DNA of 64,000 bases from Stigmatella aurantiaca DW4/3-1 (GTDB lineage: Bacteria; Myxococcota; Myxococcia; Myxococcales; Myxococcaceae), in the NCBI RefSeq assembly GCF_000165485.1, contig NC_014623.1:4731501-4795500 (forward strand), in the 5' to 3' direction. The notes beneath the pieces are model-generated. The model was not told the origin of the DNA. It worked only from the letters and a program-made list of their open reading frames with translations, and did not search any database. Both the position numbers and the translations under genes were made by a program. This document shows positions 20,738 to 60,200 of this stretch, one piece after another (the first letter of the stretch is position 1; each line of letters starts with the position of its first letter).

Positions 20738-22940
<2,203 letters not shown>

Positions 22941-37978: not shown

Positions 37979-37990
37979 CGCTTCTGGGTA

Positions 37991-38021
37991 GAGCCCGGTG
38001 CTCTTCAAGAGCACCGGGCTC
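37991..38021. terminator. Perfect 15-bp hairpin, probable bidirectional terminator
   Basis: GAGCCCGGTGCTCTT is followed after one base by its exact complement. It lies 12 bases after the lipoprotein stop. Before the insertion element arrived, it would have stood between the convergent lipoprotein gene and the PKS operon. Confidence 0.75.
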
Positions 38022-38024
38022 TAG

Positions 38025-39760: not shown

Positions 39761-42700
39761 TCAGCCGAGGCCCAACTTCTCGCGGATGAGTGCCAGGAGC
39801 GGCCCGCCCGCGTCGCGCGCGAAGAAGTGGTCCCCCTCGAAGAGGTGAATGGACGGCTTCTCTCGCGTGAGCTCGCCCCAGGACTCCAGCTGCGTGGAAG
39901 GAATGATGCGGTCCCGCGTGCTGGCGAAGACGGTGAGGGGCATGTCCAGGGGCGCCTCCTCCGCATAGCTGTAGCTCTCCAGCAGGACGAGGTCCTTTCG
40001 GAGGGTGGGCAGGTACGTCTTCATCAGCTCGGAGTCGTGCTCCCGGCCGAACTCTTCCGAGATGAAGCCTCGCTGGCGGGTGAACTCCAGGAACTCCCTG
40101 TCGGAGAGCCGCAGCGCGATGGAGGCGGGCATGGGCAGATGGGGGGCTCGGAAGGAGGAGACGAACAGGTGCCTGGGGACGCGGTTCTGTTTGCGCAGGT
40201 AGCGCGTTAGCTCGAACGCATAGAGGGAGCCGAGGCTGTGGCCGAGGATGGCGAACGGGCCGTCCAGGTGTGGCTCGAGTGCCTGGGCCAACACGGGGAT
40301 GAGCGCATCGAAGCGCTCCGGGTGTGGCTCTCCAATCCGGGCCCCGTGGGCTGGCAGCTCGACGGGGTAGAGCCCCAGCTCTTCCGGTACGTGCGGTGCC
40401 CAGGTGCGGAAGAACGACGCGCTGGCCCCGACGCCCGGGATGCAGAACAGCTTGATGCGCTCCTTTGCCGAGGTGCGGGTGAAGGCGAACCAAGGCCTCG
40501 CGGGTGTGCTGCCGGGGGTGGCTTGCTCCGGCTTGCGCGTCTCGGGGAGCACGGGGCTCGTGGAGTCCGCGGGCTGGCCGGTGAGGGTGGGTTGGCTCAA
40601 CAGGTACTCGGTCATCGACGCGATGGCGGGATAGGTGAAGAGCAGCGTCGCGGACATCTTCAATCCCAGGGTGGCTTCCAGCCGGTTGCGCAGCTCCAGG
40701 CTCATCAGCGAGTCCAGGCCCATGTTGGTGAACGCTTCATGCCGGTCGAGCTTGGACGGATCCAACCGCAACACGCGGGCCACCTGCTTCGTCAGGAACT
40801 CCTCCAGCAGTCCCCGGCGTTGCGTGGGCTCCGCATCGATCAATGCCTGGCGGATGTGGAGGGTGCCCGGCTCCTCCGCCCCGGCGGGGGTGGGCTCCGC
40901 GAGCAGCTCCGCCCAGAAGGGCGAGCTGGCGCCCGGGTAGGACTCCAGCCACCGCCGCGCTTCGAAGTGCATCACCGCGGCTTGTGCGGCGCGGCCTGTG
41001 AGCAGCCGCTCCAGCACCGCCGTGCCCTGTGCTGGCTTGATGCTGCCCACACCCCGGTGCAGCAGCCGCTCGCCGCGATTGGACTGGGCGGCGGCCTGAC
41101 CCACGTCAGAGAAGGCACCCCAGTTGATGCTCAAGCCCGGCAGCCCCTGACGGCGCCGGTGCCACGCCAGCGCATCCATGAAGGCATTGGCCGCCGCGTA
41201 GTTGGTCTGCCCGGGTGAGCCCAGCAAGGACGCGCCCGACGAGTACATGACGAAGAAGTCGAGAGGGAGCTGGGAGGTGAGGGAGTGGAGGTTCCAGGAG
41301 CCCTGGACCTTGGGGCCCATGGGCTTGAGGAAGCGCTCGGAGTCGAGTTCCAGGACGGTGCGGTCCTCGAGGACGACGGCGGCGTGAAGGACGCCCTTGA
41401 GGGGGAAGGGAGAGGAGTGGATGCGCTGGAGGACGGAGGAGAGCTGGTCGAGGTCGGAGACGTCGGCGCGTTCGACGAGGACGGAGGCGCCGGACTGCTC
41501 GAGGGAGTCCAGGACGAGGCGAGCGGCAGCGGAGGGCTCGCTGCGGCCCAAGAGGACCAGGTGCTTGGCGCCCTTGGAGACCATCCACTTGGCGACGGAG
41601 AGGCCCAGGCCGCCCAAGCCACCGGTCAACAGGTAGGAGGCCTCAGGGTGGAAGGAGACAGGCTCGCCGCCGAGGGAGTCGTAGGAGCCGCGAACCAATC
41701 TGGCCAGGTGACGAGAGTCGGAGCGCCAGGCGACCTGGGTTTCGCCATCGGAGGCCCCGAGCTCGGCCCAGAGGGATTGAGCCTGAGAGGGAGCGTCGGA
41801 GGAGAGGACATCGACGAGGGTGGTTTGCAGCTCGGGATGTTCCAGGGAGAGAGCCCTGCCGAAGCCCCAGAGGGGAGCCTGAGAGACAGAGAGGGAATCG
41901 TCCTGGGAGACGGCGTGAGCGCCGCGGGTCACCAGCCACAGCTTCGGGGTGTGGGTCCACCCCTGCCGCACCACGGCTTGAGCGAGGTAAAGAGCGCTCT
42001 GGGAGCCGAGTTGAAGGGCGTGTTCAGGGTGCTCGTTGCTGGTGGAGTCGAGGCTCCAGAGGTGAATGATGCCCCGGCAGCCGCCAGCTTCACCGAAGGC
42101 GTCCTGAAGCACGCGCCGGTAGTCCTCCGGGGCGGAAGCGTTGATGCGGAAGAGCCCTGGCTCCAGCTTCTCGTAGTGGTCCGAGGCGGCGACCTTCACG
42201 CACCGCTGTCCGCTGGCCTCCATCAGCCCAGCCAGTGCGGTGCCCGTCTTGCCGCCATCCAGGAGCACCAGCCATGCGCCTTCGCCGCCTTGCGGTCCAT
42301 GGTCCAGGGGCGCGCCTTCGTAGCGCTTCCAGTCCAGGGTGTAGAGCCATTCCTCGCCCGTCGGGCGCATGCTGACGCCCCCCTCCAGCTTTTGGACCCG
42401 CAGGCCCTTCACCTCGGCGAGCACCTCGCCGGCTTCGTTCAGCAGGGAGATGTCCCAGATGAAGCCATTGAATTCCTTGTCCGCGGGCCTGAGCCGACCG
42501 TGCGCCCAGAGCTCTCGGTCCGGTCGGCGGTAGACGCGGAGGGAGTCCACGCCCACCGGGACGTAGGGTTCGCCGTCTTCGATGGCCTTGCCTCCAGGTG
42601 TGAAGACGAGCGCGCCCAGCACCTGGAAGCAGGCATCCAGGAGGGCCGGGTGGAGCCGGTAAGCCGAGAGCTGCGACGTCGCCCCGTCGGGCAGCCGCAC

Positions 42701-45700
42701 CTGGCCCAGCACTTCGTTCGTGCCCTGCCACAGCTCCTGCACACCCTGGAAGCTGAGGCCGTACTGGATGTGTTGCTTCTCCACGATGGGGTAGTACGCA
42801 GAGCCCTGCATGCTCACCGGGCACCGCTGGCGGATGAGCCGAGGCTCCTCACCGCGTACGGGCTCCTGCGCGTCGCTCAGCAGCCGCAGGTTGCCAGTCG
42901 CATGGCGTACCCAGGCGGAGCTCCCTTCCGTCTGGCTGGAGACCTGGAAGAAGGCTTCACCGCCGGTCTTCTCGGTGAGCACGACCTGGACGGTGCGAGC
43001 CTGCTTCGCGGGCAGCGCCAGCATTCGATCAAAGGTTGCTCCCTCCAACACGTAGGGCTTGCTTCCGAAGGCCGCAGCGCCCGCGGCGAGGCCCATCTCC
43101 ACGTAGGCCGCACCGGGAACGACCACTTCTCCTTGCACGCGGTGATCCGCCAGGTAGGGCACGGCCTCGACACTCAGAGGTTGTTCCCAGCAGCGCGTCC
43201 CAGGAAGGGTGGACAAGGAGAGGGAGCGTCCCATCAGCGGGTGCAGCACCTCTCCCGGACGGAGCGCGGGTCCTCGCGTCAGCGGCGCCACCTGCATGGT
43301 CGAGTCGACCCAGAAGCGCTCGCGCTGCCATTGATAGGTGGGGAGAGGAACGGGATTGCCAGAGGAGCCGAGGATGAGAGGCCAGGAGAGAGAGAGGCCG
43401 TAGGTGTGGAGAGAGGCAGCGGACTCAAGGAGAGAGCGCCTGTCGTCGTGGTCTCTGCGAAGAGAGGAGAGAGCGAGGCCCTTGGGAGAGTCCTTGAGGG
43501 CCTCCTGGATGGAGGGGAGGAGGATGGGGTGAGGGCTCATCTCGAGGAAGACGTCGTGACCCGAGGAGAGCAGGTGTTGGAGGCCCTGGAAGAAGAGGAC
43601 GGGCTGGCGGAGGTTGCGGACCCAGTAGTCGGGGGAGAGGTGGCCCTGGAGGAGTGGGGAGGCGGTGACGGTGGAGAGCATGTGGACGGAGGGAGAGGAG
43701 GCCTGAATGCCGGAGAGTGCAGAGAGGAGCTCATCACGCAACGCGTCCATGTGAGGACTGTGAGAGGCGACGTCGACCTTGATGCGGCGGCAGAAGACGC
43801 CGCGGCGCTCGAGGAGAGAGAGGACGGATTCGAGGGACTGAGTGTCGCCGGAGAGGACGGTGGAGCGAGGCCCGTTGGAGACGGCGATGGAGAGGGAGGA
43901 CTCGAAGCCAGAGAGTGCGGAGCGAGCCTCGTCGAGGGGAAGCTCGACGAGGGCCATGGCGCCCTTGCCGCTCATGCGGCGCATGATGCGGCTGCGGCGG
44001 CAGATGATGCGAGAGGCGTCCTGGAGGGAGAGGGCGCCCGCGATGTGGGCGGCAGCGACTTCGCCCATGCTGTGGCCGAGGACGGCGTCGGGGAGGACGC
44101 CCCAGTGCTTCCAGAGGGAGGCCAGGCCGACGCTCAAGGCGAAGAGAGCGGGCTGGATGAAGTCGATGCGGGAGAAGAGGGGACCAGGAGACTCCAGTTG
44201 TTGGAGGAGGGAGAAGTCGGTTTCGGAGCGGAAGGCGGCGTCGCAGGCTTCGAGAGACTGGCGGAAGACGGGCTCCTGCAGGAGGAGGCGGCGGGCCATG
44301 CCCTCCCACTGAGAGCCCTGGCCAGGGAAGATGAAGACGACGCGAGGCTTGTCAGAGGAGACTTCCGAGCGGGAGAGGGAGGAGGGAGCGTCGCCGGAGA
44401 GGAAGGCTTGGAGGGACTGACGCCACTCAAGCTTGGATTGTCCGACGAGTGCGAGGCGGTGCTTGGAGTGGGAGCGTCGGAGGGAGGCGGAGAAGGCGAT
44501 GTCGCGCTCGGAGAAGGAGGAGCCCTCACCGTCTGGGCCGAGGAAGTGGACGTATTGGCGGGCGAGAGCGTCGAGGGCGGGGCCACTGCGGGCCGAGAGG
44601 AGCAGGACGCGCTCAGGGAGGGAGGACTCGGGGGCAGGGGCCTCGGAGTCCGGGGCCTCTTCGAGGATGACGTGGGCGTTGGTGCCGCTGATCCCGAACG
44701 AGTTGACGCCTGCGAAGCGGCGCTTGGCGCCCTTTTTCCACTCCATCTTCTTCGTGGCGAGGACGAGTGAGGTGCCCTCCAACTGGATGCGAGGGTTGAG
44801 GCGCTTGAAGTGGAGGTTCTTGGGGATGGCCTCGTGCTGCATCGACAGGACAACCTTGATGAGGCCCGCGATGCCCGCGGCGGCCTCGAGGTGGCCGATG
44901 TTGGACTTGACGGCCCCCAGGACACAGTGAGAGCCGTCTTCGTGGGGTGGGCCGAAGACATCGCTCAGGGCCTGCACTTCGATGGGGTCTCCGAGCGCGG
45001 TGCCCGTGCCGTGCGTCTCCACATAGGAGATGTCCGAGGCGGAGAGCCGTGCGCTCTCCAGGGCCTGCTGCAACATGGCCTGCTGCGCGAGAGCGTTAGG
45101 GGCCGTGAGGCCGGTGGAGCGGCCGTCCTGGTTGACGGCGGAGCCGCGGATGACGGCGAGGACGCGGTCGCCAGCGGCCTGGGCATCCGAGAGGCGCTTG
45201 AGGACGATGATGCCGCAGCCTTCGCCACGCACGTAGCCGTTGGCCTGGGCATCGAAGGTCTTGCACCTGCCATCCGGTGAGAGTGCCTGCGAGCGGCCGA
45301 AGATGTACGTCAGCCACGGCAGCACCATGGCGTTGACACCGCCCGCGATGGCCATGGAACTCTCGCCATTGCGCAGGCTCTGGCAGGCCAGGTGCACGGC
45401 TACCAGGGACGAGGAGCACGCGGTGTCCACCGCCATGCTCGGCCCTTGCAACCCCAGGGAGTAGGACACCCGGCCTGGTGGGAAGCAGTGCCCGTTGCCC
45501 GTGGCCGTGTAGATGTCGAGCTTCTTGGGGTCCGTGAAGAGCCCGTATTGCTCATAGTCGTTCGTGTTGATGCCCAGGAACACGCCCGTTCGCGTCCCCG
45601 AGAGCAGCTCGGGCGCGATGCCCGCGCGCTCGAGGGCCTCCCACGTCACCTCCAGGACGAGGCGCTGCTGGGGATCCAGGTTCACCGCCTCGCGGGGGGA

Positions 45701-46039
45701 GATGCCGAAGAAATGCGGATCAAAGACATCGAGCCGCTCTTTGAGGAAGGCGCCCCAGCGCGTCGCGCGCTGCTCGGGATGAGCGGGATCCTGATAATTG
45801 AAAGGATCCTCGCCCCAGCGGTCCTGGGGGACCTCGGTGATCGTGTCCACGCCCTTTTCGAGCAGCTTCCAGAAGGCCTCGGGCGTCGAGGCGCCCCCTG
45901 GGAAGCGGCACCCCATGCCGACAATGGCGATGGGCTCCGTCCGGGCATGGTTCAGGGCGTCGATTTCCTGCTGCATCTCCCGGAGCGCGACGACGGCGTT
46001 GCGCAGGCGGGACAGGTATTCATTTTCAGGCTGGCTCAT
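39761..46039 (-). CDS. Type I PKS, final module: KS-AT-DH-KR-ACP-TE
   Basis: A 2092-residue protein. N-terminal docking coiled coil ([20 protein letters not shown]). KS at about 45930-44660 with TACSSSL, ETHGTGT and [12 protein letters not shown] at about 44320-43340 with [11 protein letters not shown] and [14 protein letters not shown] is usual for methylmalonyl-type AT. DH at 43230-42380 with [10 protein letters not shown] and LLDACFQ. KR at 41640-41100 with [16 protein letters not shown] and QTNYAAAN, so active and B-type in appearance. ACP at 40800-40590 ([11 protein letters not shown]). TE at 40450-39770 with IPGVGAS, GHSLGS and GDHFF; it resembles TEII/GrsT thioesterases more than macrocyclising TEs, so hydrolytic release is likely. 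The start overlaps the previous gene's stop (ATGA). It performs the last extension and chain release. Confidence 0.93.
40980..42240. repeat. PKS KR-region tract shared with 46620-47880
   Basis: The KR core and the inactive-half region before it in the last module read nearly identically to the same region of the preceding module. The coding strand is pyrimidine-rich in the shared core. Confidence 0.8.
43315..44670. repeat. PKS AT tract shared with two other modules
   Basis: The KS-AT linker, AT and post-AT segment, near-identical to 48965-50310 and 54560-55900. The plus strand shows strings of GAG/AGA; the coding strand is thus CT-rich, unlike the flanking KS and DH. Confidence 0.85.
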
Positions 46040-49000
46040 CGCGAGGTCCTCGTCATCCGGGTGCGCTTCAGCGATTCAGTAAGCGATTCATCGAAGAGGC
46101 TCAGCAGCTCGTCCTTGCCGAGCTGATCGAGCTCGGCGGGCAGTGCGGCCTGTGGCTTGAGGGTTGGCGGTGGGGGAGGCGCGGCGGCGGTGGGGGCGGT
46201 CTTCGCCGGAGCCTCGTCCACGCTGGAGAGCTTGCCGAGCAGGTGATCGGCGAGCGCGGCGAGGTTGGGGTAGGTGAACAGCAGCGTCGCCGACAACTTG
46301 AGGCCCAGGGTGGCTTCCAGCCGGTTGCGCAGCTCCAGGCTCATCAGCGAGTCCAGACCCATGTTGGTGAAGGACTCCATCCGGTCAAGCTTGGACGGAT
46401 CCAACCGGAGAACACGCGCCATCTGTTTGGCGAGCTGCTCCTCCAGCAGGGCGAGTCGGCGGCCCGGCTCTGCTTTGCGCAGGGCTTCACGCAGCTGTGC
46501 GGCGCCGGGATCCTCGGCCTTCGCCTTGGCCCGCTCCGCGAGCAACTGACCCCACAAGGGCGAGCTGGCACTCGGGTAGAATTCCAGCCACTGGCGTGCA
46601 TCCAGCTGCATCACCGCGGCCTGTGTGGCGCGGCCTGTGAGCAGCCGCTCCAGCACCGCCGTGCCCTGTGCTGGCTTGAGGCTGCTGATGCCTCGGAGGG
46701 ACAGTCGCTCGCCGCGATTGGACTGTGCGGCGGCCTGACCCACGTCGGCGAAGGCGCCCCAGTTGATGCTCAAGCCCGGCAACCCCTGACGGCGCCGGTG
46801 CCATGCCAGCGCATCCATGAAGGCATTGGCTGCCGCGTAGTTGCTCTGTCCGGGGGAGCCCAGCAGCGAGGCGGCGGAGGAGTACATGACGAAGAAGTCG
46901 AGAGGGAGCTGAGAGGTGAGGGAGTGGAGGTTCCAGGAGCCCTGGACCTTGGGGCCCATGGGCTTGAGGAAGCGCTCGGAGTCGAGTTCCAGGACGGTGC
47001 GGTCCTCGAGGACGACGGCGGCGTGAAGGACGCCCTTGAGGGGGAAGGGAGAGGAGTGGATGCGCTGGAGGACGGAGGAGAGCTGGTCGAGGTCGGAGAC
47101 GTCGGCGCGTTCGACGAGGACGGAGGCGCCGGACTGCTCGAGGGAGTCCAGGACGAGGCGAGCGGCAGCGGAGGGCTCGCTGCGGCCCAAGAGGACCAGG
47201 TGCTTGGCGCCCTTGGAGACCATCCACTTGGCGACGGAGAGGCCCAGGCCGCCCAAGCCACCGGTCAACAGGTAGGAGGCCTCAGGGTGGAAGGAGATGG
47301 GCTCGCCGCCCAGGGAGTCGTAGGAGCCGCGGACCAATCTGGCTAGGTGACGGGTGTCGGAGCGCCAGGCGACCTGGGTTTCGCCATCGGAGGCCCCGAG
47401 CTCGGCCCAGAGGGATTGAGCCTGAGAGGGAGCGTCGGAGGAGAGGACATCGACGAGGGTGGTTTGCAGCTCGGGATGTTCCAGGGAGAGAGCCCTGCCG
47501 AAGCCCCAGAGGGGAGCCTGAGAGACAGAGAGGGAATCGTCCTGGGAGACGGCGTGAGCGCCGCGGGTCACCAGCCACAGCTTCGGGGTGTCGCGCCAGC
47601 CCTGACGAGGGACGGCCTGAGCGAGGTAAAGAGCGCTCTGGGAGCCGAGCTGAAGGGCGTGTTCAGGGTGCTCGTTGCTAGTGGAGTCGAGGCTCCAGAG
47701 GTGAATGATGCCCCGGCAGTCACCGGCTTCACCGAAGGCGTCCTGAAGCACGCGCCGGTAGTCCTCCGGGGCGGAAGCGTTGATGCGGAAGAGTCCCGGC
47801 TTCAGCTTCTCGTAGTGGTCCGAGGCGGCGACCTTCACGCACCGCTGTCCGCTGGCCTCCATCAGCCCGGCGAGTGCGTCGCCCGTGCCGCTTGCATCGG
47901 CGAACACCAGCCATGCGCCTTCACCGTCCTCCGGTCCATGGTCCAGGGGCGCGCCTTCGTAGCGCTTCCAGTCTTGGGTGTAGAGCCACTCTTCGCCGAT
48001 GGCGCGCGATGAGGCACCGCCTTCCAACCGTTGGACGCGCAGGCCCTTCACCTCGGCGAGGACCTCGCCCTCCGCGTTCATCATCACCACATCGCCGATG
48101 CGGCTCTCCTTGCCGAGCCCCTCGCGCTTGCGCAGCCACCCGTGCGCCCAGACTTCGCGTTCCAGGGGCCGGTGGTAGTGGACCTTCTCCATGCCGACCG
48201 CGACATAGGTCTGCGGCTCACCGGTTTCATCGCCCTCGGGGGCGAACAGCAACACGCCGAGCACTTGGAAGCAGGAGTCCAGCAGGGCGGGGTGGAGCCG
48301 GTAACCCGCGATGGGCGCCGCCGGTCCATCGTGCAACACCACGCGTCCCAGCACTTCGTTCGTGCCCTGCCACAACTCCTGGACGCCCTGGAAGTAAGGG
48401 CCGTACTCGAGTCCTTGCTGGCGCAGGAGCTGGTAGTTCTCCTGCGTCGCGATGACCTGGGGGCACCGCTGCCGGATCTGGGGAGGCGCCTCGTGCGTCA
48501 CCTTTTGGCCAGCCGTCAGCTCGCCATTGGCGAACACCGTGCCCACGGCATGACGGATCCACCCCACGTTCTGGAGGCTGGAGACCTGGAAGCCCATGCG
48601 GCCTTCGCCCTGCTCGGTGAGGGCCACTTGCACGTTGTATGCGTTGGATGCGGACAGCGAGAGCATGCGCTGGAAGCTCACGTTCTCCAGCACGTAGGGT
48701 TTCTCACCGTGGGTCACCGCGGCAGCGGCCAGTCCCAGTTCCACGTAGGCTGCGGCCGGCACCACCACCTCGCTCTGCACCTGGTGGTCCACCAAGTAAG
48801 GGGCGGTCTCCGCGCTCAGAGTCTGCTCCCAGAAGCGCGGGCCGCCTTCGACGGAGAGCGGCACGGCGGTACCGAGAAGCGGGTGCACCACCGTGCCCGT
48901 ACGGGGTGCCGTGCTTCGCACCGCCTGCACAGCGGCCTGGGTCTGGACTGCTTCCTCAACCCAGAAGCGCTCGCGCTGCCATTGATAGGTGGGGAGAGGA

Positions 49001-51690
49001 ACGGGGTTGCCAGAGGAGCCAAGGATGAGAGGCCAGGAGAGAGAGAGGCCGTAGGTGTGGAGAGAGGCAGCGGACTCAAGGAGAGAGCGCCTGTCGTCGT
49101 GGTCTCTGCGAAGAGAGGAGAGAGCGAGGCCCTTGGGAGAGTCCTTGAGGGCCTCCTGGATGGAGGGGAGGAGGATGGGGTGAGGGCTCATCTCGAGGAA
49201 GACGTCGTGACCCGAGGAGAGCAGGTGTTGGAGGCCCTGGAAGAAGAGGACAGGCTGGCGGAGGTTGCGGACCCAGTAGTCCGGGGAGAGGTGGCCCTGG
49301 AGGAGTGGGGAGGCGGTGACGGTGGAGAGCATGTGGACGGAGGGAGAGGAGGCCTGAATGCCGGAGAGTGCAGAGAGGAGCTCATCACGCAGCGCGTCCA
49401 TGTGAGGACTGTGAGAGGCGACGTCGACCTTGATGCGGCGGCAGAAGACGCCGCGGCGCTCGAGGAGAGAGAGGACGGATTCGAGAGACTGAGTGTCGCC
49501 GGAGAGGACGGTGGAGCGAGGCCCGTTGGAGACGGCGATGGAGAGGGAGGACTCGAAGCCAGAGAGTGCGGAGCGAGCCTCGTCGAGGGGAAGCTCGACG
49601 AGGGCCATGGCGCCCTTGCCGCTCATGCGGCGCATGATGCGGCTGCGGCGGCAGATGATGCGAGAGGCGTCCTGAAGGGAGAGGGCGCCCGCGATGTGGG
49701 CGGCAGCGACTTCGCCCATGCTGTGGCCGAGGACGGCGTCGGGGAGGACGCCCCAGTGCTTCCAGAGGGAGGCCAGGCCGACGCTCAAGGCGAAGAGAGC
49801 GGGCTGGATGAAGTCGATGCGGGAGAAGAGGGGACCAGGAGACTCCAGTTGTTGGAGGAGGGAGAAGTCGGTTTCGGAGCGGAAGGCGGCGTCGCAGGCT
49901 TCGAGAGACTGGCGGAAGACGGGCTCCTGCAGGAGGAGGCGGCGGGCCATGCCCTCCCACTGAGAGCCCTGGCCGGGGAAGACGAAGACGACGCGGGGCT
50001 TGTCAGAGGAGACTTCCGAGCGGGAGAGGGAGGAGGGAGCGTCGCCGGAGAGGAAGGCTTGGAGGGACTGACGCCACTCAAGCTTGGATTGTCCGACGAG
50101 TGCGAGGCGGTGCTTGGAGTGGGAGCGTCGGAGGGAGGCGGAGAAGGCGATGTCGCGCTCGGAGAAGGAGGAGCCCTCACCGTCTGGGCCGAGGAAGTGG
50201 ACGTATTGGCGGGCGAGAGCGTCGAGGGCGGGGCCACTGCGGGCCGAGAGGAGCAGGACGCGCTCAGGGAGGGAGGACTCGGGGGCAGGGGCCTCGGAGT
50301 CCGGGGCCTCTTCGAGGATGAGGTGTGCGTTGGTGCCGCTCATGCCGAAGCCGCTGACGCCTGCGAAGCGGCGCTTGGGGCCCTTGGCCCAAGGAAGAGT
50401 GCGAGTGGGGATGAGGAAGGGGGTGCCTTCCAGCTGGATGCGAGGGTTGAGGCGCTTGAAGTGGAGGTTGCCTGGGATGGCCTGGTGCTGGAGGCAGAGG
50501 ACGGCCTTGATGAGGCCAGTGACACCGGCGGCGGCTTCGAGGTGTCCGATGTTGGATTTGACGGCGCCGAGGACGCAGGAGGAGCCATCGGGGCGAGGAG
50601 CGCCGATGACTTCGGTGAGTGCCTGGACTTCGATGGGGTCGCCCAGGGAAGTGCCGGTGCCGTGGGTTTCGACGTAGGAGATGTCGGAGGCAGAGACCCT
50701 GGCGTTGTCCAGAGCGGCCAGGAGCATGGCCTTCTGCGCCAGGACGTTGGGAGCGGTGAGGCCGGTGGAGCGGCCATCCTGGTTGACGGCGGAGCCGCGG
50801 ATGAGGGCGAGGATGCGGTCGCCAGCGGCCTGAGCATCGGAGAGGCGCTTGAGGATGACGATGCCGCAGCCTTCGCCTCGGGCGTAGCCGTTGGCCTGGG
50901 CATCGAAGGTCTTGCACCGCCCATCCGGCGAGAGCGCCTGGGAGGTGGCGAGCAGGTGCGTTACCCACGGCATCAACATCAGGCTGACGCCGCCCGCGAT
51001 GGCCATGGTGCTCTCGCCATTGCGCAGGCTCTGGCAAGCCAGATGCACTGAGACGAGCGAGGACGAGCACGCGGTGTCCACCGCGAGGCTCGGTCCCTGC
51101 AATCCCAGCACATACGACAGCCGCCCTGGCGGGAAGCAGTGCCCATTGCCGGTGAAGTGATACACGTCCAGCGTGGTGGGATCCTGGGGGAGGATGTATT
51201 GCTCGTAGTCATTGGTGTTGACGCCGAGGAACACACCGGTCCGAGAACCTGTGAGCTGTTCGGGAATGAGCCCAGCCCGTTCCAATGCCTCCCACGTCAC
51301 TTCGAGCAGCATGCGCTGCTGAGGGTCCAGGCTTATCGCCTCCCGGGGGGACATGCCGAAGAAGTGCGGATCGAACTGATCCATTCGCTCCTTGATGAAT
51401 CCTCCCCAGCGTGCCGACTGCTGTTCCGGGGTCGCCGCGTCTCCCCGGTCGTAGGGGTCCTTGCCCCAGCGGTCCGAGGGCGCTCGGGAGACGGCATCCG
51501 CCCCGCTGTCGAGCAGCTTCCAGAAAGCTTCGGGCGTGGAGGCGCCACCGGGCAGGCGGCAGCCCATGCCGATGATCGCGATCGGCTCGGTCCGGGCTCG
51601 TTCGAGGGCTCCAAGCTTGCCCTCCATTTCCTTGAGGGTGATCGCTGCCTTGCGCAGCCGGGCGATGTAGTCCGCTTCAGACACACTCAT
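46036..51690 (-). CDS. Type I PKS module: KS-AT-DH-KR-ACP
   Basis: An 1884-residue protein. Docking helix YIARLRKAAITLKEMEGKLG. KS at about 51570-50300 ([29 protein letters not shown]). AT at 49990-49000 ([21 protein letters not shown]). DH at 48880-48010 with HQVQSEVVVP, where the usual HxxxG is HxxxS, and LLDSCFQ. KR at 47280-46740 with [16 protein letters not shown] and QSNYAAAN, so active. ACP at 46450-46210 ([11 protein letters not shown]). C-terminal docking end LDQLGKDELLSLFDESLTES. It extends the chain by one unit and reduces the beta-keto group, possibly to the alkene. GGAGAAA about 10 bases upstream supports the start; it is 25 bases after the previous gene and overlaps the next by four. 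Confidence 0.93.
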   Translation of the reverse strand: MSVSEADYIARLRKAAITLKEMEGKLGALERARTEPIAIIGMGCRLPGGASTPEAFWKLLDSGADAVSRAPSDRWGKDPYDRGDAATPEQQSARWGGFIKERMDQFDPHFFGMSPREAISLDPQQRMLLEVTWEALERAGLIPEQLTGSRTGVFLGVNTNDYEQYILPQDPTTLDVYHFTGNGHCFPPGRLSYVLGLQGPSLAVDTACSSSLVSVHLACQSLRNGESTMAIAGGVSLMLMPWVTHLLATSQALSPDGRCKTFDAQANGYARGEGCGIVILKRLSDAQAAGDRILALIRGSAVNQDGRSTGLTAPNVLAQKAMLLAALDNARVSASDISYVETHGTGTSLGDPIEVQALTEVIGAPRPDGSSCVLGAVKSNIGHLEAAAGVTGLIKAVLCLQHQAIPGNLHFKRLNPRIQLEGTPFLIPTRTLPWAKGPKRRFAGVSGFGMSGTNAHLILEEAPDSEAPAPESSLPERVLLLSARSGPALDALARQYVHFLGPDGEGSSFSERDIAFSASLRRSHSKHRLALVGQSKLEWRQSLQAFLSGDAPSSLSRSEVSSDKPRVVFVFPGQGSQWEGMARRLLLQEPVFRQSLEACDAAFRSETDFSLLQQLESPGPLFSRIDFIQPALFALSVGLASLWKHWGVLPDAVLGHSMGEVAAAHIAGALSLQDASRIICRRSRIMRRMSGKGAMALVELPLDEARSALSGFESSLSIAVSNGPRSTVLSGDTQSLESVLSLLERRGVFCRRIKVDVASHSPHMDALRDELLSALSGIQASSPSVHMLSTVTASPLLQGHLSPDYWVRNLRQPVLFFQGLQHLLSSGHDVFLEMSPHPILLPSIQEALKDSPKGLALSSLRRDHDDRRSLLESAASLHTYGLSLSWPLILGSSGNPVPLPTYQWQRERFWVEEAVQTQAAVQAVRSTAPRTGTVVHPLLGTAVPLSVEGGPRFWEQTLSAETAPYLVDHQVQSEVVVPAAAYVELGLAAAAVTHGEKPYVLENVSFQRMLSLSASNAYNVQVALTEQGEGRMGFQVSSLQNVGWIRHAVGTVFANGELTAGQKVTHEAPPQIRQRCPQVIATQENYQLLRQQGLEYGPYFQGVQELWQGTNEVLGRVVLHDGPAAPIAGYRLHPALLDSCFQVLGVLLFAPEGDETGEPQTYVAVGMEKVHYHRPLEREVWAHGWLRKREGLGKESRIGDVVMMNAEGEVLAEVKGLRVQRLEGGASSRAIGEEWLYTQDWKRYEGAPLDHGPEDGEGAWLVFADASGTGDALAGLMEASGQRCVKVAASDHYEKLKPGLFRINASAPEDYRRVLQDAFGEAGDCRGIIHLWSLDSTSNEHPEHALQLGSQSALYLAQAVPRQGWRDTPKLWLVTRGAHAVSQDDSLSVSQAPLWGFGRALSLEHPELQTTLVDVLSSDAPSQAQSLWAELGASDGETQVAWRSDTRHLARLVRGSYDSLGGEPISFHPEASYLLTGGLGGLGLSVAKWMVSKGAKHLVLLGRSEPSAAARLVLDSLEQSGASVLVERADVSDLDQLSSVLQRIHSSPFPLKGVLHAAVVLEDRTVLELDSERFLKPMGPKVQGSWNLHSLTSQLPLDFFVMYSSAASLLGSPGQSNYAAANAFMDALAWHRRRQGLPGLSINWGAFADVGQAAAQSNRGERLSLRGISSLKPAQGTAVLERLLTGRATQAAVMQLDARQWLEFYPSASSPLWGQLLAERAKAKAEDPGAAQLREALRKAEPGRRLALLEEQLAKQMARVLRLDPSKLDRMESFTNMGLDSLMSLELRNRLEATLGLKLSATLLFTYPNLAALADHLLGKLSSVDEAPAKTAPTAAAPPPPPTLKPQAALPAELDQLGKDELLSLFDESLTESLKRTRMTRTSR
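46620..47880. repeat. PKS KR-region tract shared with 40980-42240
   Basis: The counterpart of the last-module tract. Differences seen are scattered single bases; identity fades at the ACP side and toward the DH. Confidence 0.8.
48960..50930. repeat. PKS KS(3' part)+AT tract shared with 54555-56520
   Basis: About 1.95 kb read as almost identical between this module and the preceding one; its AT part is also shared with 43315-44670. Confidence 0.88.
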
Positions 51691-51715
51691 CGGTGTTTCT
51701 CCATTTCAGGCGAAC

Positions 51716-54700
51716 TCAGGCAATGCCAAACGACTTGTCGAAAAACGCGAGCAATTCATCCTTGGAGAGTTGCTCCACTTGCTCGGCAATCTGCGAAGGG
51801 GCTGCATGGGTCTGGGATTGCGCCGCCGGTTGTTCTCGGGCAGCCGCCGGGAGCAACTCGCCGTGCAGGTATTCGGCGAGGCCGGCGAGGTTGGGATAGG
51901 TGAACAGCAGCGTCACCGAGAGCTTCAGACCCAACGAGGCCTCGAGCCGGTTGCGCAGCTCCAGGCTCATCAGTGAGTCCAGGCCCAGTTCTCCCAAGGC
52001 CCGCAGCCGGTCAATCCTCGACGCCTCCATCCTCAGGACACGCGCCAACTGCTTGGACAGGTGCTCTTCCAGCAGTGCCTGTCGGCGGGCGGGCGGTGCC
52101 TGGAGCAGGGTCTCCCGGAAACCGGCGGCGCCCGGGACATCCGCCGGTTTTGGCTCGGGCGCCTTGAGCAGCTCCGCCCACGGGGCCGTGCTGGCGGCCG
52201 GGTAGAACTCCGCCCACCGCCGCGCCTCCAGCCGCATCACCGCGGTTTGCGTGGCGCGCCCTGACAGCAGCCGTTCCAGGACCGCCGTGCCCTGCGCGGG
52301 CTCGATGATCTCCAGGGGGCCGAACGCGGCGGGCCGGGAGTCTTGGCCTTCGCGCGGGGCTTCGGCGAAGGCGCCCCAGTTGATGCTCAGCCCTGGCAGT
52401 CCCTGGCCGCGCCGGTGCCAGGCCAGCGCATCGAGGAAGGCATGGGCCGCGCCGACGTGGCTCTGTCCGGGGAAGCCCAGCAGCGACGCGACCGACGAGG
52501 AGAAGGCGAAGAAGTCGAGCGTCTGGTCTGACGTGAGGGTGTGCAGGTTCCAGGCGATCTGAAGCTGGGGGACCAGGAACTGCCGGAGACGATCCCCTTC
52601 CAGCGCCAGCACCGTGCGGCTTTCGGCCTCCGCCGGGGCCGTGTGCACCACGCCCTTGAGCACGGGGAGGTGGGCTGCCACCCGTTTCAGGGCCGCTGCC
52701 ACCTGCTCCTGGTTCGCGGGGTCGGCCTGCTCGACGACGACAGTGGCTCCTGCCTGCTTCAAATCCTCGCGCAGTGGGCGCATCGTCTCCGGGGAGCCGT
52801 CTTGTCCCAGCAAGACCAGGTGCCGGGCCCCTCGCTCCACCATCCACCTCGCCAGCGTGGAGGCGGGTCCGTTCAAGCTTCCGGCCACGAGGTAGGTGGC
52901 ATCGGGTCTCAGGTCCACGGGTTCGCCGCCCACGGCCTCGTAGGTGCCGCGCACCAGTCGGCCCAGGAACCGGCCGTCCTTGCGCCATGCCACCTGGGGC
53001 TCTCCATCGGAGGTGCCCAGCTCCGTGAAGAGCGCACGGGCCTGGGCCTGGGCATTCTCACCTGTGACATCCACCAACGTGGTCTGCAAGGCCGGGTGTT
53101 CCAGCGCGAGCGCCTTGCCGAAGCCCCAGAGCGGGGCCTGGGCCACGGACACTTGCTCTCCCGGGTTCACGGGCTGAGCCCCTTGCGTCACCAGCCACAG
53201 CTTGGGCGTGTCACGCCACCCCTGCCGCACCACGGCCTGGGCGAGGAGCAAGGCGCTCTGGCTTCCGACTTGTTGTGCTCGCTCTAGCGCCTCGGTGCCA
53301 GCGGCATCGAGGCTCCACAGGTGGATGATGCCCCGGCATCCTCCGGCTTCCCCGAAGGCCTCCCTGAGCACTCGCCGGTAATCCTCGGGTGAGGCGGCGT
53401 TGATGCGGAAGAGCCCTGGCTCCCGCTTCTCGTAGCGGTCCGCCGCGACGGCTTTCACACACCGCTGGCCGCGTGTCTCCAGCAACCCGGCCAATGCCTG
53501 ACCCGTACCGGCCGTGTCCGAGAACACCAGCCATGTTCCGGTTCCCTCCGGCCCACGCTCGGGGGTGGGGTGCCGCTTCCACTCCAGGGTGTAGAGCCAC
53601 TCCTCACCGGCTGGGCGGGCGCGGACGCCGCCTTCGAGCCGATGCATCTTCAGCCCCTTCACCTCGATGAGAACCTGACCCGGCTCGCTCAACAGCGAGA
53701 CATCCCAAACGGCGGTCCGGGCGTTCTTCTGCGCGGGTCGCAGGCGGCCGTGTGCCCAGACTTCACGCTCTGGCCGTGTGTGGACACGGAGGGACTCGAT
53801 GCCCGCGGCGATGAAGGTCTGCCGTGGACCGCCCGAACCGTCCAGGGAGGGCAGCAACACGCCGAAGGACTGGAGGCAGGCGTCCAGCAGGGCAGGGTGG
53901 AGCTGGTAGCCCGTGGCCTTCTGCGCCGCGCTCTCTGGCAGCCGTACCCGGCCCAACACCTCGTGGTGGTTCCGCCACAGCTCCTGGACGCCTTGAAAGT
54001 TCGGGCCGTACTCGAGCCCTTGTTCCTGGAGAGACCGGTAGCCTTCCCCGACGTCGATGGCGTCCGTGCACCGCTGGCGGATGAGCCGAGGCTCCTCGCC
54101 CAGGGCGGGTTCAGGGGGGGCGCTCAGCGGCCTCAGTTGGGCCGTGGCGTGACGAGCCCAGGCGGCGCCAGGCTCGGTCTGGCTGGAGACCTGGAAGGAG
54201 GCTTCACCGCCATTTTTCTCGGTGAGCACGACCTGGACGGTGCGAGCCTGCTTCGCGGGCAGCGCCAGCATCCGTTCGAAGGCGGCTCCTTCCAGCACAT
54301 AGGGTTTGTTCCCGAAGGCCACGGTGCCTGCGGCGAGGCCCATCTCTACGTAGGCCGCAATGGGCATGACCGCCTCGCCCTGCACCCGATGGTCATCCAG
54401 ATAGGGCAGGGTTGTGGTGCTCACCGTGTTCTCCCACCCCCGCACTCCTGGCAGGACCGAGAGCGAGAAAGGACGCCCAAGCAGGGCGTGGTCCTTTCCC
54501 TGCGGACGGCTCACGGGCCCTCGCATCTGGGGTTCCGTGTGTGTCTCTTCAACCCAGAAGCGCTCGCGCTGCCATTGATAGGTGGGGAGGGGAACGGGGT
54601 TGCCAGAGGAGCCGAGGATGAGAGGCCAGGAGAGAGAGAGGCCGTAGGTATGGAGGGAGGCAGCGGACTCAAGGAGAGAGCGCCTGTCGTCGTGGTCTCT

Positions 54701-57271
54701 GCGAAGAGAGGAGAGAGCGAGGCCCTTGGGAGAGTCCTTGAGGGCCTCCTGGATGGAGGGGAGGAGGATGGGGTGAGGGCTCATCTCGAGGAAGACGTCG
54801 TGACCCGAGGAGAGCAGGTGTTGGAGGCCCTGGAAGAAGAGGACAGGCTGGCGGAGGTTGCGGACCCAGTAGTCCGGGGAGAGGTGGCCCTGGAGGAGTG
54901 GGGAGGCGGTGACGGTGGAGAGCATGTGGACGGAGGGAGAGGAGGCCTGAATGCCGGAGAGTGCAGAGAGGAGCTCATCACGCAGCGCGTCCATGTGAGG
55001 ACTGTGAGAGGCGACGTCGACCTTGATGCGGCGGCAGAAGACGCCGCGGCGCTCGAGGAGAGAGAGGACGGATTCGAGAGACTGAGTGTCGCCGGAGAGG
55101 ACGGTGGAGCGAGGCCCGTTGGAGACGGCGATGGAGAGGGAGGACTCGAAGCCAGAGAGTGCGGAGCGAGCCTCGTCGAGGGGAAGCTCGACGAGGGCCA
55201 TGGCGCCCTTGCCGCTCATGCGGCGCATGATGCGGCTGCGGCGGCAGATGATGCGAGAGGCGTCCTGAAGGGAGAGGGCGCCCGCGATGTGGGCGGCAGC
55301 GACTTCGCCCATGCTGTGGCCGAGGACGGCGTCGGGGAGGACGCCCCAGTGCTTCCAGAGGGAGGCCAGGCCGACGCTCAAGGCGAAGAGAGCGGGCTGG
55401 ATGAAGTCGATGCGGGAGAAGAGGGGACCAGGAGACTCCAGTTGTTGGAGGAGGGAGAAGTCGGTTTCGGAGCGGAAGGCGGCGTCGCAGGCTTCGAGAG
55501 ACTGGCGGAAGACGGGCTCCTGCAGGAGGAGGCGGCGGGCCATGCCCTCCCACTGAGAGCCCTGGCCGGGGAAGACGAAGACGACGCGGGGCTTGTCAGA
55601 GGAGACTTCCGAGCGGGAGAGGGAGGAGGGAGCGTCGCCGGAGAGGAAGGCTTGGAGGGACTGACGCCACTCAAGCTTGGATTGTCCGACGAGTGCGAGG
55701 CGGTGCTTGGAGTGGGAGCGTCGGAGGGAGGCGGAGAAGGCGATGTCGCGCTCGGAGAAGGAGGAGCCCTCACCGTCTGGGCCGAGGAAGTGGACGTATT
55801 GGCGGGCGAGAGCGTCGAGGGCGGGGCCACTGCGGGCCGAGAGGAGCAGGACGCGCTCAGGGAGGGAGGACTCGGGGGCAGGGGCCTCGGAGTCCGGGGC
55901 CTCTTCGAGGATGAGGTGTGCGTTGGTGCCGCTCATGCCGAAGCCGCTGACGCCTGCGAAGCGGCGCTTGGGGCCCTTGGCCCAAGGAAGAGTGCGAGTG
56001 GGGATGAGGAAGGGGGTGCCTTCCAGCTGGATGCGAGGGTTGAGGCGCTTGAAGTGGAGGTTGCCTGGGATGGCCTGGTGCTGGAGGCAGAGGACGGCCT
56101 TGATGAGGCCAGTGACACCGGCGGCGGCTTCGAGGTGTCCGATGTTGGATTTGACGGCGCCGAGGACGCAGGAGGAGCCATCGGGGCGAGGAGCGCCGAT
56201 GACTTCGGTGAGTGCCTGGACTTCGATGGGGTCGCCCAGGGAAGTGCCGGTGCCGTGGGTTTCGACGTAGGAGATGTCGGAGGCAGAGACCCTGGCGTTG
56301 TCCAGAGCGGCCAGGAGCATGGCCTTCTGCGCCAGGACGTTGGGAGCGGTGAGGCCGGTGGAGCGGCCATCCTGGTTGACGGCGGAGCCGCGGATGAGGG
56401 CGAGGATGCGGTCGCCAGCGGCCTGAGCATCGGAGAGGCGCTTGAGGATGACGATGCCGCAGCCTTCGCCTCGGGCGTAGCCGTTGGCCTGGGCATCGAA
56501 GGTCTTGCACCGCCCATCTGGCGAGAGCGCCTGGGTTCTTGCGACCACGCGCATCGTCGTCTGTGAAAGGTGCAAGCTCACGCCGCCCGCAATGGCCATG
56601 GTGCTCTCGCCACTGCGCAGGCTCTGACAGGCCAGATGCACCGAGACGAGCGAGGAGGAGCACGCGGTGTCCACCGCGAGGCTCGGCCCCTGCAATCCCA
56701 GCACATACGACAGCCGCCCCGGAGGGAAGCAGTGCCCATTGCCGGTGAAGGTATAGACATCGTGTTGTTCAGGGTCGGCGTAACAGGCCTGCTTGTAGTC
56801 ATCCGTCATCAGGCCCAGGAACACGCCGGTGCGGGAGCCCATGAGTTGCTCGGGGATGAGTCCAGCCCGTTCCAATGCCTCCCACGTCACCTCGAGCACC
56901 AGCCGCTGCTGCGGATCCAGCAGCACGGCCTCCCGGGGGGAGATGCCGAAGAACTCGGGATCAAACAGCTCCATTCGCTCCTTGAGGAAGGCGCCCCAGC
57001 GCATCGAACGCTGCTCGGGATGAGCGCCGTCCTCCTCGGAGGTCTCCGTTTCCCAGCGCTCCGAGGGAACCCGGGTGACGGCGTCCGTGCCGCTTTCGAT
57101 CAACTTCCAGAAGGCCTCCGGCGTGGAGGCGCCACCGGGCAGGCGGCAGCCCAGGCCGATGATGGCGATGGGCTCCGTCTGCGCACGCGTGACCGCATCC
57201 AGGCGGGCTTTCATTTCCTGTACGGCGAGCAGTGCCCGCTTCACGGTCGACATCGACGACGCGTCGTTCAT
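51716..57271 (-). CDS. Type I PKS module: KS-AT-DH-KR(inactive)-ACP
   Basis: An 1851-residue protein. Docking helix VKRALLAVQEMKARLDAVTR. KS at about 57160-55900 (TACSSSL and both His motifs). AT at 55580-54600 ([15 protein letters not shown]). DH at 54480-53620 looks intact (HRVQGEAVMP; LLDACLQ). The KR at 52890-52330 is degenerate: the NADPH loop reads AGSLNGPAS instead of GGLGGLG, the LDD/LED motif is gone (APAEAESRTV), and the catalytic Tyr and Asn positions in QSHVGAAHAF are Val and His. The KR should be dead, so a beta-ketone would be kept and the DH would have no hydroxyl to act on. ACP at 52080-51850 ([11 protein letters not shown]). C-terminal docking EQLSKDELLAFFDKSF. The start overlaps the upstream stop (ATGA), with GGAG about 10 bases upstream. 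Confidence 0.93.
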   Translation of the reverse strand: MNDASSMSTVKRALLAVQEMKARLDAVTRAQTEPIAIIGLGCRLPGGASTPEAFWKLIESGTDAVTRVPSERWETETSEEDGAHPEQRSMRWGAFLKERMELFDPEFFGISPREAVLLDPQQRLVLEVTWEALERAGLIPEQLMGSRTGVFLGLMTDDYKQACYADPEQHDVYTFTGNGHCFPPGRLSYVLGLQGPSLAVDTACSSSLVSVHLACQSLRSGESTMAIAGGVSLHLSQTTMRVVARTQALSPDGRCKTFDAQANGYARGEGCGIVILKRLSDAQAAGDRILALIRGSAVNQDGRSTGLTAPNVLAQKAMLLAALDNARVSASDISYVETHGTGTSLGDPIEVQALTEVIGAPRPDGSSCVLGAVKSNIGHLEAAAGVTGLIKAVLCLQHQAIPGNLHFKRLNPRIQLEGTPFLIPTRTLPWAKGPKRRFAGVSGFGMSGTNAHLILEEAPDSEAPAPESSLPERVLLLSARSGPALDALARQYVHFLGPDGEGSSFSERDIAFSASLRRSHSKHRLALVGQSKLEWRQSLQAFLSGDAPSSLSRSEVSSDKPRVVFVFPGQGSQWEGMARRLLLQEPVFRQSLEACDAAFRSETDFSLLQQLESPGPLFSRIDFIQPALFALSVGLASLWKHWGVLPDAVLGHSMGEVAAAHIAGALSLQDASRIICRRSRIMRRMSGKGAMALVELPLDEARSALSGFESSLSIAVSNGPRSTVLSGDTQSLESVLSLLERRGVFCRRIKVDVASHSPHMDALRDELLSALSGIQASSPSVHMLSTVTASPLLQGHLSPDYWVRNLRQPVLFFQGLQHLLSSGHDVFLEMSPHPILLPSIQEALKDSPKGLALSSLRRDHDDRRSLLESAASLHTYGLSLSWPLILGSSGNPVPLPTYQWQRERFWVEETHTEPQMRGPVSRPQGKDHALLGRPFSLSVLPGVRGWENTVSTTTLPYLDDHRVQGEAVMPIAAYVEMGLAAGTVAFGNKPYVLEGAAFERMLALPAKQARTVQVVLTEKNGGEASFQVSSQTEPGAAWARHATAQLRPLSAPPEPALGEEPRLIRQRCTDAIDVGEGYRSLQEQGLEYGPNFQGVQELWRNHHEVLGRVRLPESAAQKATGYQLHPALLDACLQSFGVLLPSLDGSGGPRQTFIAAGIESLRVHTRPEREVWAHGRLRPAQKNARTAVWDVSLLSEPGQVLIEVKGLKMHRLEGGVRARPAGEEWLYTLEWKRHPTPERGPEGTGTWLVFSDTAGTGQALAGLLETRGQRCVKAVAADRYEKREPGLFRINAASPEDYRRVLREAFGEAGGCRGIIHLWSLDAAGTEALERAQQVGSQSALLLAQAVVRQGWRDTPKLWLVTQGAQPVNPGEQVSVAQAPLWGFGKALALEHPALQTTLVDVTGENAQAQARALFTELGTSDGEPQVAWRKDGRFLGRLVRGTYEAVGGEPVDLRPDATYLVAGSLNGPASTLARWMVERGARHLVLLGQDGSPETMRPLREDLKQAGATVVVEQADPANQEQVAAALKRVAAHLPVLKGVVHTAPAEAESRTVLALEGDRLRQFLVPQLQIAWNLHTLTSDQTLDFFAFSSSVASLLGFPGQSHVGAAHAFLDALAWHRRGQGLPGLSINWGAFAEAPREGQDSRPAAFGPLEIIEPAQGTAVLERLLSGRATQTAVMRLEARRWAEFYPAASTAPWAELLKAPEPKPADVPGAAGFRETLLQAPPARRQALLEEHLSKQLARVLRMEASRIDRLRALGELGLDSLMSLELRNRLEASLGLKLSVTLLFTYPNLAGLAEYLHGELLPAAAREQPAAQSQTHAAPSQIAEQVEQLSKDELLAFFDKSFGIA
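54555..56520. repeat. PKS KS(3' part)+AT tract shared with 48960-50930
   Basis: The counterpart of the tract in the following module. The shared block begins within the KS after the TACSSSL region, near [20 protein letters not shown], and ends at the post-AT sequence [12 protein letters not shown]. Confidence 0.88.
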
Positions 57272-60200
57272 TTCAGCAACTCCGTCGAAAGGGATTCCAG
57301 GCTCGCGAGCAGCAGTTGCTCGGCCTCGTCGTCGGACATCTGTTCCACCTCTGCGAGCCGCTCCGCCTGTCCTTCCACGGCACCGGGAGAGGCAGTGATG
57401 GGGGCCACCGTCGCTTCGGAGGGGAACTCCATGCGGCCCACTACGTGCTGGGCCAGCGAAGCGAGGTTGGGGTAGGTGAACAGCAGCGTCGCCGACAGCT
57501 TCATGCCCAGGGCTGCCTCGAGCCGATTGCGCAACTCCAGGCTCATCAGCGAGTCCAGGCCCAGCTCTCCGAGCGCGCGCAGCCGGTCGATCTTCGAGGG
57601 CTCCAGGCGCAGCACGAGCGCGATCTGCTCGGCCAGGTGCTCTTCCACCAACGCCCCGCGTTGACTCGGCTCCGCCTTGCTCAGCGCCTCGCGGAAGCGG
57701 ACGCTCGTGGATTCACGGGACTTCGTCTTCGCCTGCTCCGCGAGCAGCACCGTCCAGAGGGGCGCGCTGGCGTTCGGATAGAACTCCAACCACTGCCGGG
57801 CTTCGAGCTGCATCACCGCGACCTGGGCGCTGGAGCCTGCCAGCAGCCGTTCCAGGACCGCCGTGCCTTGCTCGGGCTTGAGACTGCCCACGCCCCGGTG
57901 CCGCAGGCGCTCGCCCCGGTTGGACTGGGCTGCGGCCATGCCGACCTCGGCGAAGGCGCCCCAGTTGATGCTCAGCCCTGGCAGTCCTTGGCCTCGCCGG
58001 TGCCACGCGAGGGCGTCCATGAAGGCATTCGCCGCCGCGTAGTTGCTCTGCCCGGGGAAGCCCAGCAGCGAGGCCGCCGACGAGTACATGACGAAGAAGT
58101 CGAGTTCCCACCCCGCCGTGAGCGTGTGCAGGTTCCACGCGCCGTGACCCTTCGCGTTCATCGGCCGGTGGAAGCGCTCCGCGTCCAGCTCCAGCATCGT
58201 GCCGTCGTCGAGTACCGCCGCCGCGTGCACCAATCCCTTGAGCGGATGCTGCTCATGGTGAATGCGGCCAAGCACCCCGGCCATCTGAGCCCGGTTCGCG
58301 ACATCGGCGCGCTCGACCACGACGGTGGCGCCAGCCTCCTCCAGCTCCCGCAGCACCGTTCGGGCCGTGGGAGAAGGCTCGCCGCGCCCCACGAGGACCA
58401 GGTGCCTTGCGCCCCGGGTCACCATCCACTTCGCCAAGGTGAGCCCGAGGCCTCCCAAGCCACCGGTGATGAGGTACGTGGCGTTCGCATGGAGCGAGGG
58501 GAGGACTGCCCCTGTGTCGCCATAGGTCCCACGCACCAGCCGGGCCACGGAGCGGGTGCCCTGGCGCCACGCGATCTGTGTTTCTCCATCCGCCGCGCCC
58601 ATCTCGGCCCAGAGCGCTTGAGCTTGAGCACGTGGGGCGTCGGCCACCACATCCACCAGGGTGGTTTGCAGCTCGGGGTGCTCCAGGGAGAGCGCCCTGC
58701 CAAAGCCCCAGAGCGGCGCCTGGGCCACGGACACCCGCTCGCCCTGGCTTACGGCTTGGGCGCCCTGTGTCACCAGCCACAACCGGGGGGTGTCGCGGCC
58801 GCCCTCCCGGACCACGGCTTGCGCGAGGTACAGCGCGCTCTGACTGCCCAGCCGCTGGGCTGGCTCCAGATCCTCCAGGCCCCCCGTGTCGAGGCTCCAC
58901 AGGTGGATGAGCCCTCGGCAGCCTCCGGCCTCACCGAACGCGTCCTTGAGCACCCGCCGGTAGTCCTCCGGTGCGGCGGCGTTCACCTGGAATCGTCCGG
59001 GCCCGAGTTGGGCATAGCGGTCCGCGGCGGTCACCAGCACACAGCGCTGGCCGCGAGCCTGCATCAGCTCCGCCAGGGACTGGCCGGTGCCCGTGGTGTC
59101 CGACAGCACCAGCCATGCGCCCGTGCCCTCTGGGCCGTGCTCCAGGGATGCACCTTCGTGCCGCTTCCACTCCAGCGTGTAGAGCCACTCCTCGCCCGGG
59201 GGGCGCGCGCTGACGCCTCCCTCCAGCCGCTGGACCTTCAGCCCCTTCACCTCAACGAGGACCTCGCCCGCGTCGTTCAAGAGCAGCAGGTCCGAGGTCT
59301 GGACCGGCTCACCCGGTTCCCCTTGCGGATTTCTGCGTGCGAAAGCCCAAAGTTCCTGTCCGGGGGGCTGAGAGAGCCTCAACGATTCGATTCCCACCGG
59401 TACCCAGGTCTCACCCGAGGTTCCATCTCGCGCGCCCGTCCACAGCGTCATCACGACTTGGATGCACGCGTCGAGGAGCGCGGGATGCAGGTGATAGCCG
59501 CCCACGCGAGCGGCGACCGCCTCCGGCAAGCGCACGCGGCCCAATGCCTCGTCGGCGCTTCGCCAGAGTTCCTGGACACCCTGGAAGCAGTCTCCGTACT
59601 CGAGCCCCATCGCCGTCATGCGCTGGTAATGCTCGGATGCACTCCAGTGCTCCGGCAGCCGCTGGCGCAGCGCGTGGGGGGTGACTCTCTCGCTCTCCGC
59701 GCGAGGGATCGCATCGGCCCGCCGAAGCAGGCCCGTGGCGTGGTGCAGCCAGGGGGAGCCGGTGTCCCCCGGCCGCTGGCTGTACACGTCGAAGGAGGCC
59801 TGCCCCGCTTCCTTCTCGGTCAGCACCACCTGGAGGGTGCGCTCCTGCTCGGGAGGCAGGGCCAGCATGCGCTGGAAGGACACCGTCTCCAGCATGCAAG
59901 GCGCAGTGCCATACGCCGCTGCTGCCGCCGCCAATCCCAGCTCCAGGTAGGCCGCGCCCGGCACCACGATTTCTCCCTGGACCCGGTGGTCCGCCAGGTA
60001 GGGGAGGGTGTCGGTGCCGAGCGTCTGCTCCCAGCATCGTGCACCGCGCAGCGCCGCGAGGGAGAGCGGGCTTCCGAGCAAGGGGTGTCCCCCCGGGAGT
60101 GAAGGCCGCGCGGCGCTCGGGCGGGTCCGGACCCAATAGCGCTGACGTTGCCAGGGATAGGAGGGCAGCGGGACGAACCGGGCCTCCAGGGGCGCCGCCT

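Follow-up and report, generated by a model that had tools for sequence, protein, structure and literature searches.

Gene-converted repeats with strong base skew in a four-gene polyketide synthase cluster of Stigmatella aurantiaca, and a possible relation of the skew to replication

A four-gene PKS cluster with near-identical repeats

The window, a 64,000-nucleotide stretch of the Stigmatella aurantiaca DW4/3-1 chromosome, contains four PKS genes on its minus strand. Gene A (39761..46039) has the domain order KS-AT-DH-KR-ACP-TE, gene B (46036..51690) KS-AT-DH-KR-ACP, and gene C (51716..57271) KS-AT-DH-KR-ACP with a KR predicted to be inactive from its lost motifs. Gene D (57268..64000, continuing in the genome to window position 64365) encodes KS-AT-AT-DH-KR-ACP, is unskewed, and contains no converted tract. 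Directly next to the 3' end of gene A, a plus-strand gene (37960-39744) encodes a DDE transposase.

Three sets of minus-strand repeats connect genes A, B, and C. Their places and sizes (1,352 bp, 1,973 bp, and about 1 to 1.25 kb) are close to those in a preliminary description of this DNA, which reported AT sequence shared by three modules, KS and AT sequence by two, and KR sequence by two. The skewed AT repeat is present as 1,352-bp copies in A (43314..44665, residues 459-909), B (48965..50316), and C (54558..55909), which are about 99% identical, with 10 mismatches between A and B and 12 between A and C. In B (48962..50934) and C (54555..56527), a longer repeat of 1,973 bp covers the 3' part of the KS as well as the AT; its two copies differ at 5 positions (99.75% identity) and have long runs that are 100% identical. 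The KR-region repeat of A (41247..42223, residues about 1273-1598), skewed within its KR part, pairs with that of B (46886..47862). About 1 kb is 97-100% identical in three runs, and identity is 91-100% along A residues 1261-1680 (about 1.25 kb). Outside the tracts, codon-aligned comparison gave about 50-85% identity between modules, DH and ACP included, and tract edges are sharp; the identity of the tracts is thus not mere general likeness of the modules. The breakpoints had been assigned to domain linkers. This holds for the right end of the AT tract (residues 909-910) and its left end in A (residue 459), but the tract in B and C starts within the KS (residue 253), and the KR tract both starts and stops within the KR region.

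Base composition of the repeats

The coding strand of the AT tract of A has a GC skew of -0.352 (about -0.35) and a TA skew of +0.248 (about +0.25), and 60-codon bins of the AT tract range from -0.27 to -0.53 for GC and from +0.16 to +0.32 for TA. C+T makes up 61-73% of the AT tract on the coding strand and up to 86% of third codon positions in the KR tract, as against about 50% in the first half of the KS, the DH, the ACP, and gene D. A binned comparison of identity and skew confines the skew chiefly to the repeated tracts, so the uneven composition across modules described earlier was found again. The stricter claim, that the skew is limited to the tracts, agrees with coding-strand values near zero in the KS 5' parts, DH, ACP, and the tandem-AT gene D; however, the 3' half of the gene A KS is mildly skewed too (GC -0.12 to -0.21). 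An absolute GC skew of at least 0.3 together with an absolute TA skew of at least 0.2 occurred in none of 1,848 1.3-kb windows from other loci sampled in the genome and in none of 296 such windows in the remainder of the 64-kb window.

Other duplications are present in the window. A pair of protein kinase genes (16696-18091 and 21505-22900), 91% identical along 1.4 kb, is free of base skew, showing that ordinary duplicates here carry none. Tandem repeats that are 83% identical (34710-35111 and 35130-35531) occur in a gene resembling alpha-1,3-glucanase, which also has two matches to CBM6.

Concerted evolution in two lineages

A survey that covered 96 family and 195 phylum genomes found a single syntenic orthologue, in G062, a genome of another genus, which has all four genes in the same order and spacing at 76% nucleotide identity. 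A wider scan over all genome contigs, with peptide patterns that made poor queries, returned only distant Bacteroidota matches, and the matches in plasmid DNA were all to PKSs of Streptomyces/Kitasatospora, about 73% being the highest value listed. The G062 cluster is flanked by two 2.3-kb stretches that are 80% identical (L057:1208-3478 and L058:10178-12454), possibly duplicated neighbour genes.

Phylogenetic trees were constructed separately for each domain. In the KS-N and DH trees, the modules pair by orthology (A-A2, B-B2, and C-C2) with support of at least 0.92. In the AT tree, A, B, and C group together and A2, B2, and C2 apart, and grouping in the KR tree is mostly by genome. The conflict between the AT tree and the KS-N and DH trees indicates gene conversion after the split of the two lineages, in agreement with the inter-module conversion proposed in the preliminary description. 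Whole-module duplication is ruled out, since KS-N and DH pair by orthology. The three G062 modules are 93-99% identical to one another in the AT (A residues 601-900), yet GC skew there ranges from -0.13 to +0.05 and TA skew departs from zero by no more than about 0.1; homogenisation can thus take place without skew. By the same comparison, the KR of A and B in the window is both homogenised and skewed, and that of G062 is less homogenised and unskewed. There is strong support for concerted evolution of the AT-coding parts of genes A, B, and C via repeated gene conversion, both here and, independently, in G062. The cluster provides a matched pair, a skewed and an unskewed orthologue sharing the same converted tract.

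Recoding of the tracts in place

The repeats had been described as imported or diverged cassettes, and the second term fits them. In a tree with 229 other ATs, the ATs of A, B, C, A2, B2, and C2 form their own clade with support of 1.0, and import of a cassette was rejected on this basis. Among the 195 phylum genomes, the nearest ATs are those of the window and G062 to one another (67-68%), followed by the next at 58%. Since the skewed ATs are nested with those of G062, they are native cassettes that were recoded in place.

With the direction of change polarised on one orthologue, G062, the comparison of B2 with B gave 224 purine-to-pyrimidine versus 35 pyrimidine-to-purine changes in the AT (about 6:1), 154 versus 24 in the KR, and 71 versus 12 in the KS-C. 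Control regions gave 112 versus 102 (AT of D), 91 versus 71 (KS-N), and 78 versus 54 (KR of D). The DH gave 284 versus 102, a ratio of 2.8; the coding strand of G062 is G-rich in its DH and KR (GC about +0.1 to +0.3), which inflates the ratios for these two domains. The commonest change is G to C; next come G to T, A to C, and A to T. In the protein, Ser, Leu, Pro, and Phe are enriched, and Glu, Lys, Gln, Val, and Ala are depleted. Relative to G062, the AT contains 15.5% Ser versus 7-8%, 15.3% Leu versus 12%, and 4.5% Glu versus 8.9%; Ser was gained in 39 of the AT differences and Leu in 20. In this lineage, purine-to-pyrimidine changes on the coding strand thus far outnumber the reverse in the converted AT, KR, and KS 3' tracts, which were recoded in place, with their amino acids altered as well.

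Assignment to GRINS

GRINS were reportedly first described in PNAS in 2021. The tracts described here have several properties in common with these elements. Published accounts describe GRINS as repeats of about 1-2 kb that are more than 90% identical within one cis-AT PKS, have intense GC and TA skews of opposite sign, recode the protein, and undergo gene conversion between modules (PMC10394414, PMC9899208, PMC11907408). They are said to be conversion-prone owing to their composition (PMC9899208), and a 2023 catalogue found them to be rare in proteobacteria (PMC10394414). We applied the published procedure (150-nt windows, step 30, identity above 80%, and both mean skews above 0.15; PMC9899208) to regions of at least 500 bp that are more than 80% identical to another part of the same PKS. 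The five such regions in the four genes all qualified, with mean identities of 0.94-0.98 and mean absolute skews of 0.18-0.34 for GC and 0.18-0.24 for TA. Relative to a stricter wording, by which GC and TA skews exceed 25% (PMC10394414), the AT tract of A is above for GC (0.352) and just below for TA (0.248), and the KR tracts have GC values of about 0.2-0.3 and TA values of about 0.15-0.24. Two further traits, a protein recoded by the skew and conversion among the copies (from domain trees versus orthology and from tract edges), are also present. The repeats in genes A, B, and C are GRINS, and constitute a well-documented new case of a known element type.

The repeats resemble published GRINS in size, high identity, skews of opposite sign, recoded protein, and inter-module gene conversion. 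Unlike published GRINS, this cluster has an unskewed yet homogenised orthologue in G062, both coding polarities occur in one genome, and a replication-strand rule is suggested. Modules 3 and 6 of the azalomycin F PKS (PMC9899208), identified by the same detection method, likewise share near-identical GRINS across KS-AT-DH-KR, but they belong to Streptomyces, in another phylum, whereas the genes here are four of one module each. Ordinary gene conversion and concerted evolution of PKS modules also make AT (and KR) cluster within a genome while KS-N and DH pair by orthology, but they create no base skew, and G062 shows that unskewed state.

Skew polarity and replication

Two further skewed sets are present in the same genome, both encoded on the plus strand and both purine-rich on the coding strand. 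One is a PKS AT pair at 4.855/4.866 Mb (L070-L072, 4826000-4874000), and the other consists of NRPS adenylation-type repeats at 5.047/5.059 Mb (L076/L138, 5045000-5080000). The proteins of both sets are rich in Glu, Lys, and Gly, a mirror image of the window tracts. Orthologues of the 4.85-Mb PKS (L136/L137, L094/L095, L176, and L177; genomes G094, G104, G105, and G102) have AT repeats with coding GC skews up to +0.67, among the most extreme in the data set. All three skewed sets in S. aurantiaca are purine-rich on the plus strand of the chromosome, with genes on both strands. Such a reversal of sign between coding strands speaks against transcription or codon choice as the cause and favours a process polarised by replication. 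The dnaA gene is at base 127 of the chromosome, and G-rich octamers, which we take to resemble the FtsK-orienting sequences (KOPS), lie preferentially on the plus strand as far as 5.14 Mb and on the minus strand from 5.89 Mb onwards. The position of dnaA and the octamer polarity, by which the terminus region was placed, indicate that replication at the window has the plus strand as its leading strand.

Across 20 complete or nearly closed related genomes, PKS/NRPS windows of at least 90% identity have a coding GC skew of +0.343 in genes on the leading strand and -0.113 in genes on the lagging strand, and unrepeated windows of the same genomes have +0.032 and -0.022, respectively. Purine enrichment of the leading strand was found in 11 of 12 independent clusters (MWU p=0.004), in a count that merged one orthologous cluster from several genomes, merged orthologous clusters only where these were recognised, and excluded uncertain loci near ori and ter. 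When all loci are kept and strands are assigned from dnaA, 18 of 21 follow the rule. Of 56 bins, 10 receive conflicting leading-strand calls from dnaA and from the octamers, and most of these are near the terminus; with the disagreeing loci flipped, the rank test stays (MWU p=0.009) and the sign test is null (13/22). Strongly skewed tracts account for the effect, and NRPS repeats with weak skew close to the terminus give ambiguous results. The G062 cluster lies 60-85 kb from its dnaA, with an unskewed AT and KR and DH regions mildly G-rich in coding; if dnaA marks the origin and the cluster is on the lagging side, this KR and DH skew is contrary to the rule. The test was devised after sight of the data from this genome and covers one family, and the statistical link that it provides is a lead. 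Among the papers searched, which did not include the original 2021 PNAS paper, none links GRINS with "leading strand".

Whether replication sets the direction of the skew, with a purine-rich leading strand making lagging-side genes, such as those of this cluster, pyrimidine-rich and leading-side genes purine-rich in coding, is in our judgement evenly balanced. We propose more tentatively the fuller reading that replication sets the direction and, in addition, that skew accrues on tracts already homogenised by conversion, in which case GRINS may be scars of replication-associated recombination or repair and not elements selected for diversification.

Origin of the skew

We consider it likely that the cluster as a whole is best explained as GRINS in a four-gene PKS, formed by conversion together with in-place recoding under a bias that we infer to be strand-specific. 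Strand-asymmetric mutation, or a bias of mismatch repair where the copies recombine, would act during replication-linked recombination, and gene conversion would then spread the skewed result to all copies. The order of events could be the reverse, with a skewed recombinogenic element arising or arriving in one module and itself driving conversion, as GRINS are usually read. In the window, skew and identity are highest in the same tracts, the KR is homogenised where it is skewed and less so in G062, where it is unskewed, and the literature ties the conversion-proneness of GRINS to composition (PMC9899208). However, the AT copies of G062 are 93-99% identical without intense skew, and many NRPS repeats above 90% identity in related genomes show little, and we regard this order as rather doubtful.

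A pyrimidine-rich coding strand could also result from transcription-linked mutation, codon usage, or selection on the mRNA, consistent with a bias that is strongest at third codon positions. We find this improbable, since the sign of the skew, read on the coding strand, is reversed among clusters both within one genome and in different genomes, and neighbouring domains on the same transcripts are unbiased; the purine-rich coding GRINS on the same chromosome contradict a coding-strand or transcription bias. The sharp contrast in composition with the flanks might suggest that a foreign pyrimidine-rich cassette entered one module and was copied to the others, but this is very improbable, given ATs nested with their syntenic orthologues, tract edges inside domains whose other half stays orthologous, and mirror-image composition in two other clusters of the genome. 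That the long stretches of complete identity between B and C reflect repeats collapsed or copied in assembly or polishing is hardly credible, since each copy has unique flanks and assembly cannot produce the skew itself; the single 10.26-Mb contig of the chromosome and the same four-gene layout in G062, in order and spacing, make an artefact in repeat copy number unlikely. What makes this case valuable is the unskewed orthologue together with the replication hypothesis, whose sign rule is testable on any set of complete genomes. If this reading is right, the cause (conversion and replication polarity) would be separated from the consequence (recoded ATs), and the tracts would offer guidance on where PKS domains can be swapped.

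Predicted effects on domain function

The AT motifs GHSMGE and VASH, the latter from the specificity region, do not differ among A, B, C, and G062, so their sequences indicate no change of AT specificity. Because these motifs are kept and all three ATs are alike, the effect of recoding on the chemistry is expected to be none or small. The KR of module C (52364..52900, minus strand), which is unconverted and unskewed, has lost its NADPH motif (AGSLNGPA) and the catalytic Tyr/Asn. Its G062 counterpart shows degeneration at these same positions, and the loss is thus probably older than the split of the two genomes. The KR of C is also the only KR of modules A, B, and C left un-overwritten by conversion, and selection may keep it unconverted and degenerate. 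The suggestion of natural module engineering, in the sense of a change of function, finds no counterpart in these motifs, with VASH common to the three modules and G062, and with the KR of C, which both genomes carry in degenerate form, not overwritten here. As far as sequence can indicate, conversion here appears to have homogenised the modules and not to have diversified them. In the DH of gene B (residues about 968-978), the HxxxGxxxxP motif reads HQVQSEVVVP, and its predicted activity is uncertain; Ser replaces the Gly that is retained in B2 of G062.
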